In this document: in pieces, positions 1,896 through 6,149 of the stretch
Position numbering within the stretch: position 1 is the stretch's first letter
How the letters are laid out: each line of letters begins with the position of its first letter
Assembly (NCBI GenBank): GCA_030692515.1
Contig: JAUXZS010000056.1
Location: 62,001-126,000 of the forward strand
Direction of reading: 5' to 3'
From: Bacteroidota bacterium
GTDB taxonomy: Bacteria > Bacteroidota > Bacteroidia > B-17B0 > Aurantibacillaceae
DNA: 64,000 bases
The notes under the pieces: generated by a model
The model's database searches: none
Seen by the model: the letters and a program-made list of their open reading frames with translations, nothing else
Told to the model about the DNA's origin: nothing
Translations under genes and position numbers: made by a program

Positions 1896-2255
1896 TAAAC
1901 TACCGCTAACACCAAGCAAGCGACCACTTTTTGCGGGTTAGCGCTCAAATGTGTAACTTGACAAAGCAAAAAGCGGACGCCTGCTTGGAGAACGTTACAA
2001 GCAAGTGTAGGACGACCGACAACTCGACAACAAACCGACCGAAACAAAGACGAAAATGCCAACGCTTCGCAAAATTAAAAGAGCTGCAAGCCGACACACA
2101 AGCCAACGTTTTTGCAGCACATTTAATTTTACCCAACCGCGCCCAAAGCCCACCCACCACCCGACTGTATTGACTGTTGAAAGTTTGATACATCAAAGTA
2201 CATTAAATAGCCATTTTTTTACGAACTTGCAACTGAATAATTGAATATAAAATCA
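1896..2255. other. 360-nt gene-free spacer with a long imperfect hairpin
   Basis: No convincing gene. The spacer starts with TACCGCTAAC (1901-1910), followed by a 23-nt imperfect inverted repeat: 1912-1934 pairs with 1966-1988 at 20 of 23 positions around a 31-nt loop. The rest (1990-2170) is clearly richer in G and C than the flanking genes and has many ACCGAC, GCCAAC and GCCGAC words. The word AAAAGAGCTGC followed by AAGCC recurs near 5837 after the restriction operon. Short ORFs on both strands here have no gene-like composition and are treated as chance. Confidence 0.6.
1912..1988. repeat. Imperfect inverted repeat (23-nt arms), attC-like
   Basis: Arms at 1912-1934 and 1966-1988 match at 20 of 23 positions. 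All three mismatches are single and scattered, so the strand could fold into one long stem with isolated mispairs. The loop is 1935-1965 and itself contains GGTTAGCG. A long imperfect stem just after a stop codon is the shape of integron attC sites; this is an analogy from architecture, not a database match. Confidence 0.6.
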
Positions 2256-3518
2256 ATGAAAACAAAAGAGAAAATAAGCATAGACGAATTTGATGGCAAA
2301 CGCTTTCAAATCAGACTTGTCGAACCTAAAGACAATAAAAAAGCTGTATTGACTCATTATCTGCACAACATTCACAATGGGGTTTCAAAGCATTATAAAA
2401 AAGACGCTTTGAAAGTTTTAAAAGAATATGTACAATACAAAGAGGAAGACGAGAATATTTCAATGGTTGCAGAGGACGCTCTTCAACAACTACTTTTTGA
2501 GGTTGAAAACGTTCCATTCCCAACCCCAGACAATTACTCTTTTAAATTCATAGACTTGTTCGCAGGTATTGGCGGTTTCAGACTTGCAATGCAAAATCTT
2601 GGTGGAAAATGTGTATTTACAAGCGAGTGGGACAAAGAGGCACAAAAAACATACAGAGCAAATTTCGGAGAAATCCCATTTGGTGACATCACGAAAGAAC
2701 AAGTTAAAAACTACATTCCCGACAAATTTGATTTATTGTGCGCTGGTTTTCCTTGCCAAGCATTTTCAATTGCGGGCAAACGCGGTGGTTTTGAGGATAC
2801 AAGAGGAACATTATTTTTTGATGTAGCCGAAATAATTAAACGCAAAAAACCCAAAGCAATCTTTTTAGAAAATGTAAAAGGATTGAGAAATCATAACGGA
2901 GGCAGGACACTTGAAACAATTTTAAATGTTTTACGGAATGACTTAAATTATTTTGTCCCTGAACCGAAAATAATAAATGCAAAAGAATTTGGAGTTCCAC
3001 AAAACAGAGAACGAATTTACATTGTTGGTTTCCGCAAAGACTTAAAAATTACCGAATTCGAATATCCAAAAGCAACGAAAAAGAAAGTAACATTTGCGAA
3101 TGTAAAAGAGAAAAAAGTTCCACCAACAAAGTATTTCCTTTCAACACAATATGTGCAAACCTTAATTAATCACAAAGAAAGACACGCAAACAAAGGGAAT
3201 GGTTTTGGGTATGAAATTATTCCGGACACAGGCATTGCAAATGCAATCGTAGTAGGTGGTATGGGACGAGAAAGAAATTTAGTTTACGACCACAGAATAA
3301 CTGATTATACTCCTACAACTCACATAAAAGGAACAGTGAATAAAGAAGGTATTCGCAAAATGACACCAAGAGAATGGGCAAGACTTCAAGGTTTTCCAGA
3401 CAAATATGTAATTCCTGTTGCTGACGCATCGGCTTACAAGCAATTTGGCAACTCCGTTGCCGTTCCTGCAATACAGGCGACAGCAAAGAAAATTTTAGAA
3501 CTAATTTTAGAGAAATGA
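2256..3518 (+). CDS. DNA (cytosine-5-)-methyltransferase of a type II R-M system
   Basis: This enzyme transfers a methyl group from S-adenosylmethionine to C5 of cytosine in a recognition site, protecting host DNA from the partner nuclease. The motifs are complete and in order: DLFAGIGG (motif I, about residue 100), GFPCQAFS with catalytic Cys near 167 (motif IV), FLENVKGL (motif VI), QNRERIYIVGF (motif VIII), and REWARLQGFP with QFGNSVAVP (motifs IX-X). The variable region between VIII and IX should set the target site. About 95 residues precede motif I, an extension that may regulate or bind DNA. I chose ATG at 2256 over the TTG at 2241. The stop overlaps the nuclease start by 4 nt, showing a translationally coupled operon. 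Confidence 0.95.
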   Translation: MKTKEKISIDEFDGKRFQIRLVEPKDNKKAVLTHYLHNIHNGVSKHYKKDALKVLKEYVQYKEEDENISMVAEDALQQLLFEVENVPFPTPDNYSFKFIDLFAGIGGFRLAMQNLGGKCVFTSEWDKEAQKTYRANFGEIPFGDITKEQVKNYIPDKFDLLCAGFPCQAFSIAGKRGGFEDTRGTLFFDVAEIIKRKKPKAIFLENVKGLRNHNGGRTLETILNVLRNDLNYFVPEPKIINAKEFGVPQNRERIYIVGFRKDLKITEFEYPKATKKKVTFANVKEKKVPPTKYFLSTQYVQTLINHKERHANKGNGFGYEIIPDTGIANAIVVGGMGRERNLVYDHRITDYTPTTHIKGTVNKEGIRKMTPREWARLQGFPDKYVIPVADASAYKQFGNSVAVPAIQATAKKILELILEK

Positions 3519-4138
3519 ATAAATTAAACCAATTAGGAATTACTGTAGGAAAGGACAATAAAGCAGAGGTGGTTTTTGATAGCCTATTTCCAAGTTTTAT
3601 GACCGTGAAATATAAAAAGCCATCGGATTATATCACGACTTATTGGGATGCATTCCAGAAACATCCAGAAGGGAATAATAATTTAAACGGAAAAATATTT
3701 GAATACATTTTAGCAACATTGTTTGTTCGTGAAAATATTTTGCCTTTGTATATGAGTGCTAAAGTTGCATTTGTTCCAAATGTAATTTACGACCTAATGT
3801 TTTATACCACAGAGCGTGGACCAATTTGTATTTCGGCAAAGACAAGTTTGCGTGAACGATACAAGCAAGCCGATCTTGAATCTATTGCATTAAAATATGT
3901 TCACAGAAAAGCATTAAGTTATTTGGTAACACTTGAAGTCAACGAAGCAAAAAGTGTTAAAGCCAAAATTAAAAGTGGGGACGTTATCGGGCTTGACAAT
4001 GTTATTGTTGCGACCAGTAATGACTTCAATGATTTAATTGATGAATTGAAAACATTTAAGTTTTCAGAACCGCCAACAGTGAAAGTAATTGAGAGCAACC
4101 AAATAATTACAAAAGAAAAAGTTTTAAGCTTAAAATAG
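3515..4138 (+). CDS. Probable type II restriction endonuclease
   Basis: A 207-residue protein encoded directly after the methyltransferase with a 4-nt ATGA overlap, the usual place for the cognate nuclease. A PD-(D/E)XK-like core is visible: Glu63 in GKIFEYIL, Asp93 in VIYDLMFY, then the strand ICISAKTS with Lys109, and Glu122 in ADLE. The position normally holding the acidic residue of ExK is Ser107, and Glu122 lies 13 residues after the lysine. This is the permuted arrangement known from the EcoRII/SsoII/Cfr10I/NgoMIV nucleases. The family assignment is inference from spacing; target site unknown. It would cut DNA lacking the partner's methylation. Confidence 0.75.
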   Translation: MNKLNQLGITVGKDNKAEVVFDSLFPSFMTVKYKKPSDYITTYWDAFQKHPEGNNNLNGKIFEYILATLFVRENILPLYMSAKVAFVPNVIYDLMFYTTERGPICISAKTSLRERYKQADLESIALKYVHRKALSYLVTLEVNEAKSVKAKIKSGDVIGLDNVIVATSNDFNDLIDELKTFKFSEPPTVKVIESNQIITKEKVLSLK

Positions 4139-4139
4139 T

Positions 4140-5765
4140 ATGAGCGAAAAACAATTAATAATGTCGTTTGAGGCTAATACCATACAACATCTTGGTGTTA
4201 AAATGTATTCAACTATACCTCCTGCATTAGCAGAACTTATTGCAAATGCTTATGATGCTTGCTCTACTGAAGTTCATATTAAATTCTATGATGGTGAAAA
4301 TAAAAAAGTAATTGTTGAAGACAATGGCACTGGAATGTCTTTTGACCAAGTCAATGATTACTTTTTAAGAATAGGCAGAAACCGAAGGGAAGAAAAACAA
4401 AAATCAGCGTGCGGCAGAATACCCACAGGAAAAAAAGGACTTGGCAAATTAGCATTGTTTGGAATTGGTGATACAGTTAACATAATAACATGTCAAGGAA
4501 GTGAAGCGGTAAGTTTTACGATGGATTGGGAAGAAATTAATGCATGGGAAAATGGAAAACCATATACTCCAAAATTTGACATTATACCTGCTGGAAAATT
4601 CAAAAATGGAACAACAATTATCCTCTCCAATTTAAAAAGAAAAACAGGGTTCCCAATTCAAGATTATTCTGAGAGTATCGCCAGGCTATTTAATTTCAAT
4701 GATGATTTTGTTGTTTACTTATCATTAAATGATGGCGAACCAATAAAAATTGACAACAAATTAAAGTATCAAAATATTGAACCGGAATTTCGTTGGGACA
4801 TTTCTATTATAAATGAAATGAATCCAATCGTTTATAACGACAAAGCACAAATTGTTGGAACAATTGTTACAACTGAAAAACCACTGAAAGCAAATCTACG
4901 AGGTGTCACGTTATTTGCAAATGGAAGAATGGTTAATGCTCCAGAATTTTTTGGCCCTTCCGAATCAAGTCACTTTTATTCATATGCAACAGGTTGGTTA
5001 AATATTGATTTTATTGATAATTGGGAAGAGGATGTAATTTCCACTAATCGACAATCCATTGATTGGGAAAATCCACTTACTACAGAACTACGCGAATATC
5101 TTGCTAGCTGTTTGTTGATTATAGAAAAGCAGTGGAGGGAATATCGGAAGGAAAAAAAACAAAGTTTAATTTCAGAAAAAACAAATATAAATGTAACAGC
5201 ATGGGTAGATACTTTAACTGGCAAAGTTAAAGATGATGTTGAAGCACTAATAAATATTTTAGATGATACTCCTGAAATATCAGAGAATATACAGCAAAAA
5301 TCAATGTTACTATTAAATAGTTTGGTGCCTGAATATCCTAATCTTCATTGGCGACATTTACATACTGAAATTCAAAACGCATCAGAAAACGACTATAAGA
5401 ATCAAGATTATTATAGAGCATTTATAGAATCAGTAAAAAGATACATTAACCAAGTTCGAGCAAAATCAAATAGTACTAATGCATCAGACCAAGGTATGAT
5501 GGGTGCGGAATTTGGCTTGGGGAAAATATTGCAAGTTGCGGCAAAATATAATAAACCAAATGGTAATCCATTTCACGTAGACACATACAAATGTATTGAA
5601 GAAGGACAAAAATTGCTCTCGATGGGCATTGTTTCTGGGGCTAGAAATCCAATTTCTCACGAAGAAATTGTAGACTTAAGAGATTCTGGTTTATTTTCAG
5701 AAAAAGACTGCTTAGATATGCTAAGTTTATTATCTCATTTGTTTAAACGACTAGATGATGTATGA
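4140..5765 (+). CDS. GHKL-type (MORC/MutL-like) ATPase of the R-M operon
   Basis: A 541-residue ATP-binding protein of the Hsp90/gyrase/histidine-kinase/MutL superfamily. The N-terminal Bergerat fold is clear: N-box ELIANAYDAC with Glu32 and Asn36, G1 box VEDNGTGM (61-66), and lid GKKGLGK (97-103). The middle part resembles the S5-like transducer region of MutL/MORC ATPases; the C-terminal 200 residues are helical and unfamiliar. It starts 1 nt after the nuclease stop, so it belongs to the same operon. GHKL ATPases of the MutL/MORC type are reported in bacterial restriction-modification clusters, where ATP-driven clamping or remodelling of DNA is proposed. A role in cleavage control here is inference. 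Confidence 0.85.
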   Translation: MSEKQLIMSFEANTIQHLGVKMYSTIPPALAELIANAYDACSTEVHIKFYDGENKKVIVEDNGTGMSFDQVNDYFLRIGRNRREEKQKSACGRIPTGKKGLGKLALFGIGDTVNIITCQGSEAVSFTMDWEEINAWENGKPYTPKFDIIPAGKFKNGTTIILSNLKRKTGFPIQDYSESIARLFNFNDDFVVYLSLNDGEPIKIDNKLKYQNIEPEFRWDISIINEMNPIVYNDKAQIVGTIVTTEKPLKANLRGVTLFANGRMVNAPEFFGPSESSHFYSYATGWLNIDFIDNWEEDVISTNRQSIDWENPLTTELREYLASCLLIIEKQWREYRKEKKQSLISEKTNINVTAWVDTLTGKVKDDVEALINILDDTPEISENIQQKSMLLLNSLVPEYPNLHWRHLHTEIQNASENDYKNQDYYRAFIESVKRYINQVRAKSNSTNASDQGMMGAEFGLGKILQVAAKYNKPNGNPFHVDTYKCIEEGQKLLSMGIVSGARNPISHEEIVDLRDSGLFSEKDCLDMLSLLSHLFKRLDDV

Positions 5766-6149
5766 AGTCATTAGCCAACGCTTTTGGTAACACATTTGTA
5801 TTTTTTGCCAAATCACAAAGTCAAACAAAAAAATACAAAAGAGCTGCCAAGCCAACGCGCCAAGACAGTAGTAGAAATGGACAACACAGCAATGACAGAC
5901 AGAACACCAGCTTGTAACAGCAACTACAAGAAATTGGCGGTTCAGTGGTTAAATAAAGCTTTGTGCTTCGTATCAAGTTCAGTGGTGGCAGACAGTTTTC
6001 GTCTCCGAAATCGCCAACTTCTTGTAGCTGCCAACCGTTAGGTGGTAGGACAAGCTTTTTTAGACATTTAACCAAACAAAATTTAATAATAAATATTATG
6101 CTATACTATTTTAATGAACTACAAATACTGAATAAAACAACTTGAATAA
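5766..6149. other. 384-nt spacer with hairpins; no gene
   Basis: No credible ORF. The spacer begins with GCCAACGCTTTTGG just after the ATPase stop and holds a TTTGG...CCAAA hairpin (about 5781-5813). It then has AAAAGAGCTGCCAAGCCAAC (5837-5856), shared with 2077-2094, and a long inverted repeat (5924-6027). It ends with CCGTTAGGTGG (6035-6045) and an AT-rich leader before the ATG at 6150. The same building blocks recur in other spacers of the first 15 kb. Confidence 0.6.
5924..6027. repeat. Spacer element with 19-nt imperfect inverted repeat
   Basis: Arms at 5924-5942 and 6009-6027 match at 17 of 19 positions, enclosing a 66-nt loop. An outer CAGC/GCTG pair (5918-5921, 6027-6030) extends the stem past a small bulge. 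Part of the loop (5941-5990) aligns at about 70 percent with 7171-7220. The left arm word at 5928-5946 matches 11305-11323 at 18 of 19 positions. This marks a dispersed intergenic repeat family. Confidence 0.65.

Follow-up and report, generated by a model that had tools for sequence, protein, structure and literature searches.

A three-gene operon that joins a predicted CCGG-type restriction-modification pair to a GHKL ATPase with a Ymh/HEPN domain

What does a GHKL ATPase do when its gene stands directly behind those of a DNA methyltransferase (MTase) and a restriction enzyme? The question is raised by an operon at 2256-5765 of a 64,000-nucleotide stretch (the window; contig JAUXZS010000056.1, positions 62,001 to 126,000) from a Bacteroidota bacterium of the Aurantibacillaceae (assembly GCA_030692515.1). 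The operon encodes a C5-cytosine MTase, a predicted nuclease and an ATPase with a C-terminal Ymh/HEPN domain, and with slightly better than even confidence we read it as a CCGG-type type II restriction-modification (R-M) system that has a GHKL-gated HEPN domain as second line of defence. What the sequence shows is the order of the genes, their domains and catalytic residues, and how they are conserved, linked and exchanged; from this we infer the target, the trigger, the RNase activity and the second-line role.

Gene order and the domains of the third gene

All three genes are on the + strand. The first (2256-3518, ATG start at 2256) encodes the MTase of 420 amino acids (aa; PF00145, 9e-104), the second (3515-4138) a 207-aa type II restriction endonuclease predicted to belong to the CCGG family, and the third (4140-5765) a paraMORC-type GHKL ATPase with a C-terminal Ymh/HEPN domain (541 aa; PF13589, 2.2e-20, and PF09509, 3.8e-14). 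Genes 1 and 2 overlap by 4 nt (ATGA) and a 1-nt gap separates genes 2 and 3; this layout, the 541-residue ATPase and a C5 MTase as gene 1 had been given in a preliminary description of the locus, and our check of the open reading frames (ORFs) and the PF00145 match agree with it. MTase, nuclease and ATPase-HEPN form one operon, in which adjacent MTase and restriction endonuclease genes, the hallmark of a type II R-M system, are present, with the nuclease recognized by profile and motif.

The arrangement is not due to chance, as seen from the same gene order in a second locus, L131, and from pN values far below pS. Specifically, in L131, whose source belongs to the class of the window but to a different family, genes for Vsr, MTase, nuclease and ATPase-HEPN follow each other in that order, and the proteins are 86.0% (MTase), 80.7% (nuclease) and 70.8% (ATPase-HEPN) identical to those of the window. 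DNA similarity is limited to 2218-5760 (+ strand; 74.6% identity, 3571-column alignment); nothing else in the window's initial 12 kb matches L131. Between the two loci pN/pS is 0.087/0.693 for the MTase, 0.131/0.656 for the nuclease and 0.183/0.680 for the ATPase-HEPN gene; purifying selection acts on all three, with omegas that are rough since dS is near saturation. To judge from these alignments, the three-gene block moves as a unit.

The N-terminal half of the third gene product contains a GHKL ATP-binding domain (HATPase_c_3, PF13589, 2.2e-20 in Pfam) at residues 27-135 (4218-4544, + strand). The N-box (ELIANAYDA), G1 (DNGTGM) and lid (TGKKGLGKLALFG) motifs are intact, as first described, and their key residues are the same in the seven full-length rows of alignment A1. 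The BbrUII/HgiDII model (NF050001) matches residues 8-415 (1.2e-66, 225.6 bits); the equivalog cut-off of 550 bits is not reached and the match ends at model position 437 of 659. Moreover, the S5 motif GhXhhpXXRhl, which unites MORC proteins (Iyer 2008, PMC2292703), has no match in the ATPase when applied strictly; GVTLFANGRMV at residue 255 satisfies all its defined positions except the polar one (A260). On this motif the ATPase is not a strict MORC, one defined S5 position failing.

The C-terminal domain, which the preliminary description overlooked, is Hypoth_Ymh (PF09509) at residues 405-538 (5352-5753, + strand), with 3.8e-14 and 53 bits against a Pfam cut-off of 25; TIGR02391 gives 43.1 bits (cut-off 39.45). 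A C-terminal restriction-fold nuclease domain of the paraMORC3/VcSduA type is absent from gene 3, the C-terminus of which matches PF09509. In alignment A5, PF09509 is found in 10/10 members and HATPase_c_3 in 9/10, the remaining one (L005) presumably having its N-terminal part off its contig. An Rx4H motif, R502-NPIS-H507 (5643-5660, + strand), is invariant in all ten. The PADLOC model PD-Lambda-3_B matches residues 402-540 (8.4e-6), and PD-Lambda-3 is a tested defence system. Anantharaman 2013 (PMC3710099) counts Ymh among the HEPN families, gives Rx4-6H as its conserved motif and proposes a PrrC/RloC-like role for paraMORC-Ymh proteins. Because the Ymh/HEPN domain, its Rx4H motif and the ATP-binding motifs are all intact, the gene 3 product is predicted to be an ATPase plus a putative RNase.

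The nuclease and the predicted target

The nuclease was compared with the PDB by means of a profile (A2) of nine sequences, the window nuclease and eight relatives. Five sequences matched at E 5 or better, i.e., Ecl18kI (8.1e-5), PspGI (0.027), EcoRII (0.12), CREB (0.28) and a second EcoRII (0.32). In all nine aligned nucleases, the window's counted, D93, K109 and E122 as well as R113-E114-R115 are invariant, so that the motifs bear out the swapped active site proposed earlier. Two features mark the CCGG family (PMC6344858), a permuted PD...K...D/E site and an R-(D/E)R motif in contact with the CCGG bases, and both are present here (9/9). By sequence the nuclease fits this family, Ecl18kI being the best solved relative; an AlphaFold2 model of it (alignment A3, four rows) reached a pLDDT of only 46.6. 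It shares the permuted active site and the R-(D/E)R motif (PMC6344858) with Ecl18kI, PspGI, EcoRII and BsaWI, its best profile matches, and differs from them in being shorter (207 aa) and in adjoining an HpaII-type MTase.

The nuclease has matches in 3/395 genomes of the phylum (one match being weak), and ten loci with a relative, all outside the window, were compared. L059 (match at 4.1e-4 with two stops) was dropped before counting, and a partial frame (L063) was left out of A2. The fetched DNA comprised 140 bases to 6.8 kb per side, and in the nine loci besides L131 (L060-L066, L069, L070) it held no GHKL match at 1e-4. The MTase gene overlaps the nuclease gene in four of them, a Bacillus subtilis plasmid (L065), a Desemzia incerta plasmid (L066) and two viral contigs (L061, L062); the MTases of the two plasmids presumably resemble M.MspI. 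Beside the nuclease of the other five, no C5 MTase was found in the fetched flanks. One of these relatives (L069, 3941-4606; 47.8% identity to the window nuclease) lies within a 636-kb uncultured phage record, with neither C5 MTase type found in its 4-kb flanks. Because relatives occur without the ATPase nearby, the nuclease is probably sufficient for cutting by itself.

This bears on the claim of the preliminary description that the ATPase acts with this nuclease. On such a model the ATPase is a restriction subunit that moves or loops DNA for ATP-dependent cutting, and the HEPN-like tip survives as a leftover with a structural or RNA-binding role. The tight overlapping operon, which recurs as a block in L131, would suit it, and Iyer 2008 (PMC2292703) proposed that the MORCs and paraMORCs of R-M systems loop DNA. 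However, 9/10 nuclease relatives (all except L131) are without a GHKL ATPase in the fetched flanks, and R502 and H507 would not be expected to stay invariant in a leftover.

For the target we turned to the MTase, whose target-recognition region (TRD) comprises residues 263-362 (3042-3341, + strand) and is predicted to be of the CCGG type from its identity to HpaII-paired MTases. Matches to gene 1 (METHYLTRANSFERASE) at 1e-60 or better are present in 40/390 genomes, its own one counted, and 14 of these 40 MTase loci were fetched. The window MTase is 86.0% identical to that of L131, as given above; its next closest relatives stand before HpaII nuclease genes, and one of them, a homologue in genome G245 (80% identity), is followed by RE_HpaII. 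Among the fetched loci (L107-L120) the MTase precedes HpaII, AAA_5, NgoFVII, MvaI/BcnI or EcoRII-type genes, and several of the MTases have the ~94-residue N-terminal extension of the window MTase. An RE_HpaII gene stands directly after the MTase in 5/5 (L107, L108, L109, L110, L112), and of 100 TRD columns 72, 65, 53, 57 and 52, respectively, are identical to the window. In L111, where the MTase is interrupted and no nuclease gene was seen beside it, the number is 73/100.

MTases with other partners (n = 10) have only 9-18 identical TRD residues in 54-94 aligned columns (L116, L117, L119 and L120 were left out of the TRD comparison). These include 15-18 of 54-74 for MTases beside relatives of the window nuclease, 14-16 of 93-94 for MTase6, another MTase type considered below, and, of 84-85 columns, 18 for L113, 16 for L114, 10 for L115 and 9 for L118. 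The last four, with AAA_5 (L113, L114) or NgoFVII-type (L115, L118) genes downstream, serve as controls, as their N-terminal extension (58/92, 55/94, 64/94 and 44/94 identical for L113, L114, L115 and L118) is as well shared as in the HpaII-paired MTases. HpaII cuts CCGG. Because nuclease family and MTase TRD agree, we infer a CCGG-type target for the operon.

Partners and tips of the ATPase-HEPN protein

At full length the ATPase was found in one of 40 genomes of the genus (its own; one more has a partial match), in 4/395 genomes of the phylum, 3/325 of the class and 4/385 of an overlapping draw; a further search centred on G502 gave no new full-length copy. Among viral contigs 131 pattern matches yielded no confirmed relative, and a phage collection had none. 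Eleven ATPase-HEPN loci were compared: the window, L131, L003 (Chryseobacterium), L004 (Smithella), L005 (a Bacteroidetes metagenome-assembled genome), L006 (a Methanoperedenaceae archaeon), L007, L008, L009, L132 and L067. L005 begins inside the ATPase, which leaves ten loci with a readable upstream side and excludes it from the GHKL tree; L067 is a broken copy, counted as a locus and used in no alignment, and a second gonococcal record was left out. This copy (L067, 5107-8072, Neisseria gonorrhoeae) consists of a broken MTase-ATPase-HEPN run followed by an open Vsr frame.

All ten readable loci encode a C5 MTase upstream of the ATPase-HEPN and within one gene run with it. The window's own genome has five C5 MTase genes in 4.33 Mb (six match rows, two of them in one reading frame), or ~0.012 expected per random 10 kb. 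Homologues mostly unlinked to R-M genes would have spoken against the preliminary description; they are linked in all readable cases, and its picture, a MORC-related GHKL ATPase within an R-M operon, agrees with both domains and linkage. The MTase is MTase6 in 8/10; the other 2/10 (window, L131) have an HpaII-like MTase and beside it the CCGG-family nuclease. With the L006 protein as query, six of the MTase6 sequences match at 7.1e-123 to 3.2e-134 and the L067 pieces at 5.9e-40 and 1.6e-52; against the window MTase they reach only 3.9e-5 to 2e-17. A Vsr gene is present in 9/11 loci (phmmer; three also by Pfam) and accompanies seven of the eight MTase6 loci; it was not found in the window or in L004, where only 1.2 kb of contig follow downstream. 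Four of the 11 loci have an HNH_2 nuclease nearby (L003 and the regions of L007, L008 and L009). In L003 (1347-5934), HEF_HK and Response_reg_2 proteins sit between MTase and ATPase-HEPN, so that two reported GHKL-R-M associations are joined in one gene run.

Taken together, this suggests that ATPase-HEPN is a portable part, combined with at least two unrelated MTase/nuclease sets. It also completes the case on the subunit model, since 8/10 readable ATPase-HEPN loci are without this nuclease. Because each mostly occurs without the other, the view that the ATPase drives the nuclease is weakened, and the ATPase has a predicted effector of its own (HEPN). Of the proposed ATP-modulated type II-like module, the R-M operon with a linked GHKL ATPase is supported; an ATPase specific to this nuclease is not supported. 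We regard the subunit model as unlikely.

Partner exchange could also point to an independent abortive-infection gene that hitch-hikes with R-M genes. With no R-M-free copy in ten readable loci, against the random expectation given above, we give this very little credence.

The two halves of the ATPase have different nearest relatives. For residues 1-404 the window is nearest L131 (77% identity; L003 70%); for residues 405-541 it is nearest L003 (79%; L131 54%), and the HEPN tip of L131 is nearest that of L005 (82%). In the GHKL tree (nine rows) window and L131 group with support 100/99, whereas the data reject the window with L003 (p-AU 6.2e-4). The HEPN tree (ten rows, 141 columns) rejects window and L131 (p-AU 3.7e-60) and groups the window with L003 at support 94/98.6, slightly under the tool's star. 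The groups were picked after the identities had been seen, so the p-values flatter the case for exchange, but the step from 79% to 54% is a large one. L003 is one of the MTase6 loci, and so the ATPases that appear to have exchanged HEPN tips come from R-M sets unrelated to each other. A tip that is exchanged, not lost, is a further point against a leftover.

Longer GHKL relatives (n = 10, 619-683 aa) have PF09509 in 0/10 at 0.05, and in four of them (L010, L014, L016, L133) weak nuclease-domain matches below cut-off were seen (HSDR_N_2, SduA_C, NucS_C). Nine of these relatives and L068, aligned together, read RxD at the C-terminus and have a strand with E after it. In 6/10 (L010, L015-L018, L068) the PD-(D/E)xK lysine is present (ExK); in L011-L014 it is M or V, and some of these proteins may be inactive or built differently. 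In L133 (4923-7887) an MTase6-type MTase stands directly before a 633-aa GHKL protein with no Ymh and a weak DNase-domain match, which probably represents a natural swap of the effector tip.

Such loci raise the question of whether MTase and ATPase-HEPN form the core, with unmarked DNA opening the clamp for a methylation-gated attack on RNA and the nuclease as an add-on. The MTase gene is directly followed by ATPase-HEPN in L004, L006, L007, L008, L009 and L132, the probable swap in L133 involves the same MTase type, and the BbrUII/HgiDII model, which NCBIfam calls a restriction enzyme, has the same GHKL part. Yet Vsr accompanies 5/6 and HNH 3/6 of those six loci in the fetched DNA, so DNA may still be cut there; moreover, the window MTase is of another type, and a direct reading of one specific mark by the ATPase is hard to square with partner exchange. 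We find this model improbable, about to the same degree as the subunit model.

The surroundings of the operon in the window differ from those of L131, and the following was noted there. Downstream lies a dehydrogenase gene that is closely matched in only 4/40 genus genomes, its own included. From the intergenic flanks (1890-2220 and 5765-6060), pieces of ~29-104 bases recur in contigs C9, C10, C15, C16, C32, C41, C56 and C58 of the same genome. An integron origin of these repeats is not supported, since the integrase model gave 20 matches with none over the cut-off; it also has matches below the cut-off in 14/14 control genomes. The two 5-kb contigs C9 and C10 (L150, L151) have end sequences in common and repeats of ~170-190 bases between small single ORFs, and look like a repeat-separated cassette array; some of the ORFs resemble, by eye, what we take to be toxin-antitoxin genes.

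A possible mechanism and its place among known systems

On the reading that we favour, a type II system with a GHKL-gated HEPN domain, the MTase would mark host sites with a CCGG core and the small CCGG-family nuclease would cut unmarked DNA on its own. The gene 3 protein would be an ATP-driven GHKL clamp with a putative HEPN RNase, shut in normal cells. The clamp might open once restriction fails through overload or inhibition, or in the presence of unmodified or broken DNA, and the opened HEPN domain would then cut RNA and so stop translation and phage growth.

Several points weigh against this reading, beginning with the fact that the trigger is itself conjectural and that the functions of all three proteins are predictions from their sequences. 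The identification of Ymh as HEPN comes from published sequence analysis, and the AlphaFold2 model of the ATPase has a pLDDT of 37.8 (alignment A4, five rows). For the nuclease, the Ecl18kI match (8.1e-5) is modest, covers profile positions 28-115 and stops before E122; the single sequence reaches PF18643 (RE_BsaWI) in Pfam at 6e-4, below the cut-off, retrieves no restriction enzyme from the PDB and matches none of the nuclease models of PADLOC or NCBIfam. As to the target, the TRDs of the nuclease-paired MTases of L061 and L062 fit no assigned type, and CCGG is not depleted, with 84 observed against 81.6 expected in the window and 32 against 22.2 in an overlapping 19.5-kb stretch (L134).

The paraMORC-Ymh fusion and its likely role have been known since 2013. 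Fusions of this kind combine the same GHKL ATPase with a C-terminal Ymh HEPN in an R-M locus; this gene order, partner exchange and HEPN-tip exchange are not described in the passages drawn on here (Anantharaman 2013, PMC3710099), to which alone paraMORC together with HEPN could be traced in the openly licensed papers searched. Among the titles listed from these papers, none announces the present operon. Our data add the three-gene combination, its recurrence, the assignment of CCGG from two sides and the exchange of partners and HEPN tips. PrrC and RloC likewise have a HEPN RNase held by an ATPase, PrrC inside an R-M system, but their ATPase is ABC and that of gene 3 is GHKL (PMC3710099). VcSduA, a GHKL-Shedu fusion (paraMORC3) from Vibrio cholerae, has the same N-side GHKL ATPase and a C-side nuclease effector; it protects against phage, for which both an ATPase and a nuclease residue are needed, and its effector is a PD-(D/E)xK domain (DUF4263) in place of HEPN (PMC12137116). 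The BbrUII/HgiDII family shares the GHKL half, with Ymh as the C-terminal part in gene 3.

More tentatively, GHKL-HEPN may be a gate between self and non-self that follows the logic of restriction-modification with an RNase, HEPN, as its main effector: where the ATPase does not sense the host's DNA mark, RNA would be destroyed. The GHKL part would then be a chassis for exchangeable tips, HEPN in this operon and a DNase-like tip in relatives of the HgiDII type; it would be plugged into unrelated MTase/nuclease sets and its HEPN tips swapped between them, with DNA and RNA cutting wired here to one CCGG-type mark.

If the favoured reading is true, a compact three-gene system would combine restriction with abortive infection in a single operon, the GHKL ATPase probably being the switch, and the 2013 paraMORC-Ymh proposal would become directly testable. 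The predicted CCGG-type target would make for simple biochemistry. Finally, the natural swaps, in which one MTase type is found with a HEPN or a DNase-like GHKL protein and one ATPase type with different nucleases, would be ready-made experiments on how MORC-related ATPases control their effectors.

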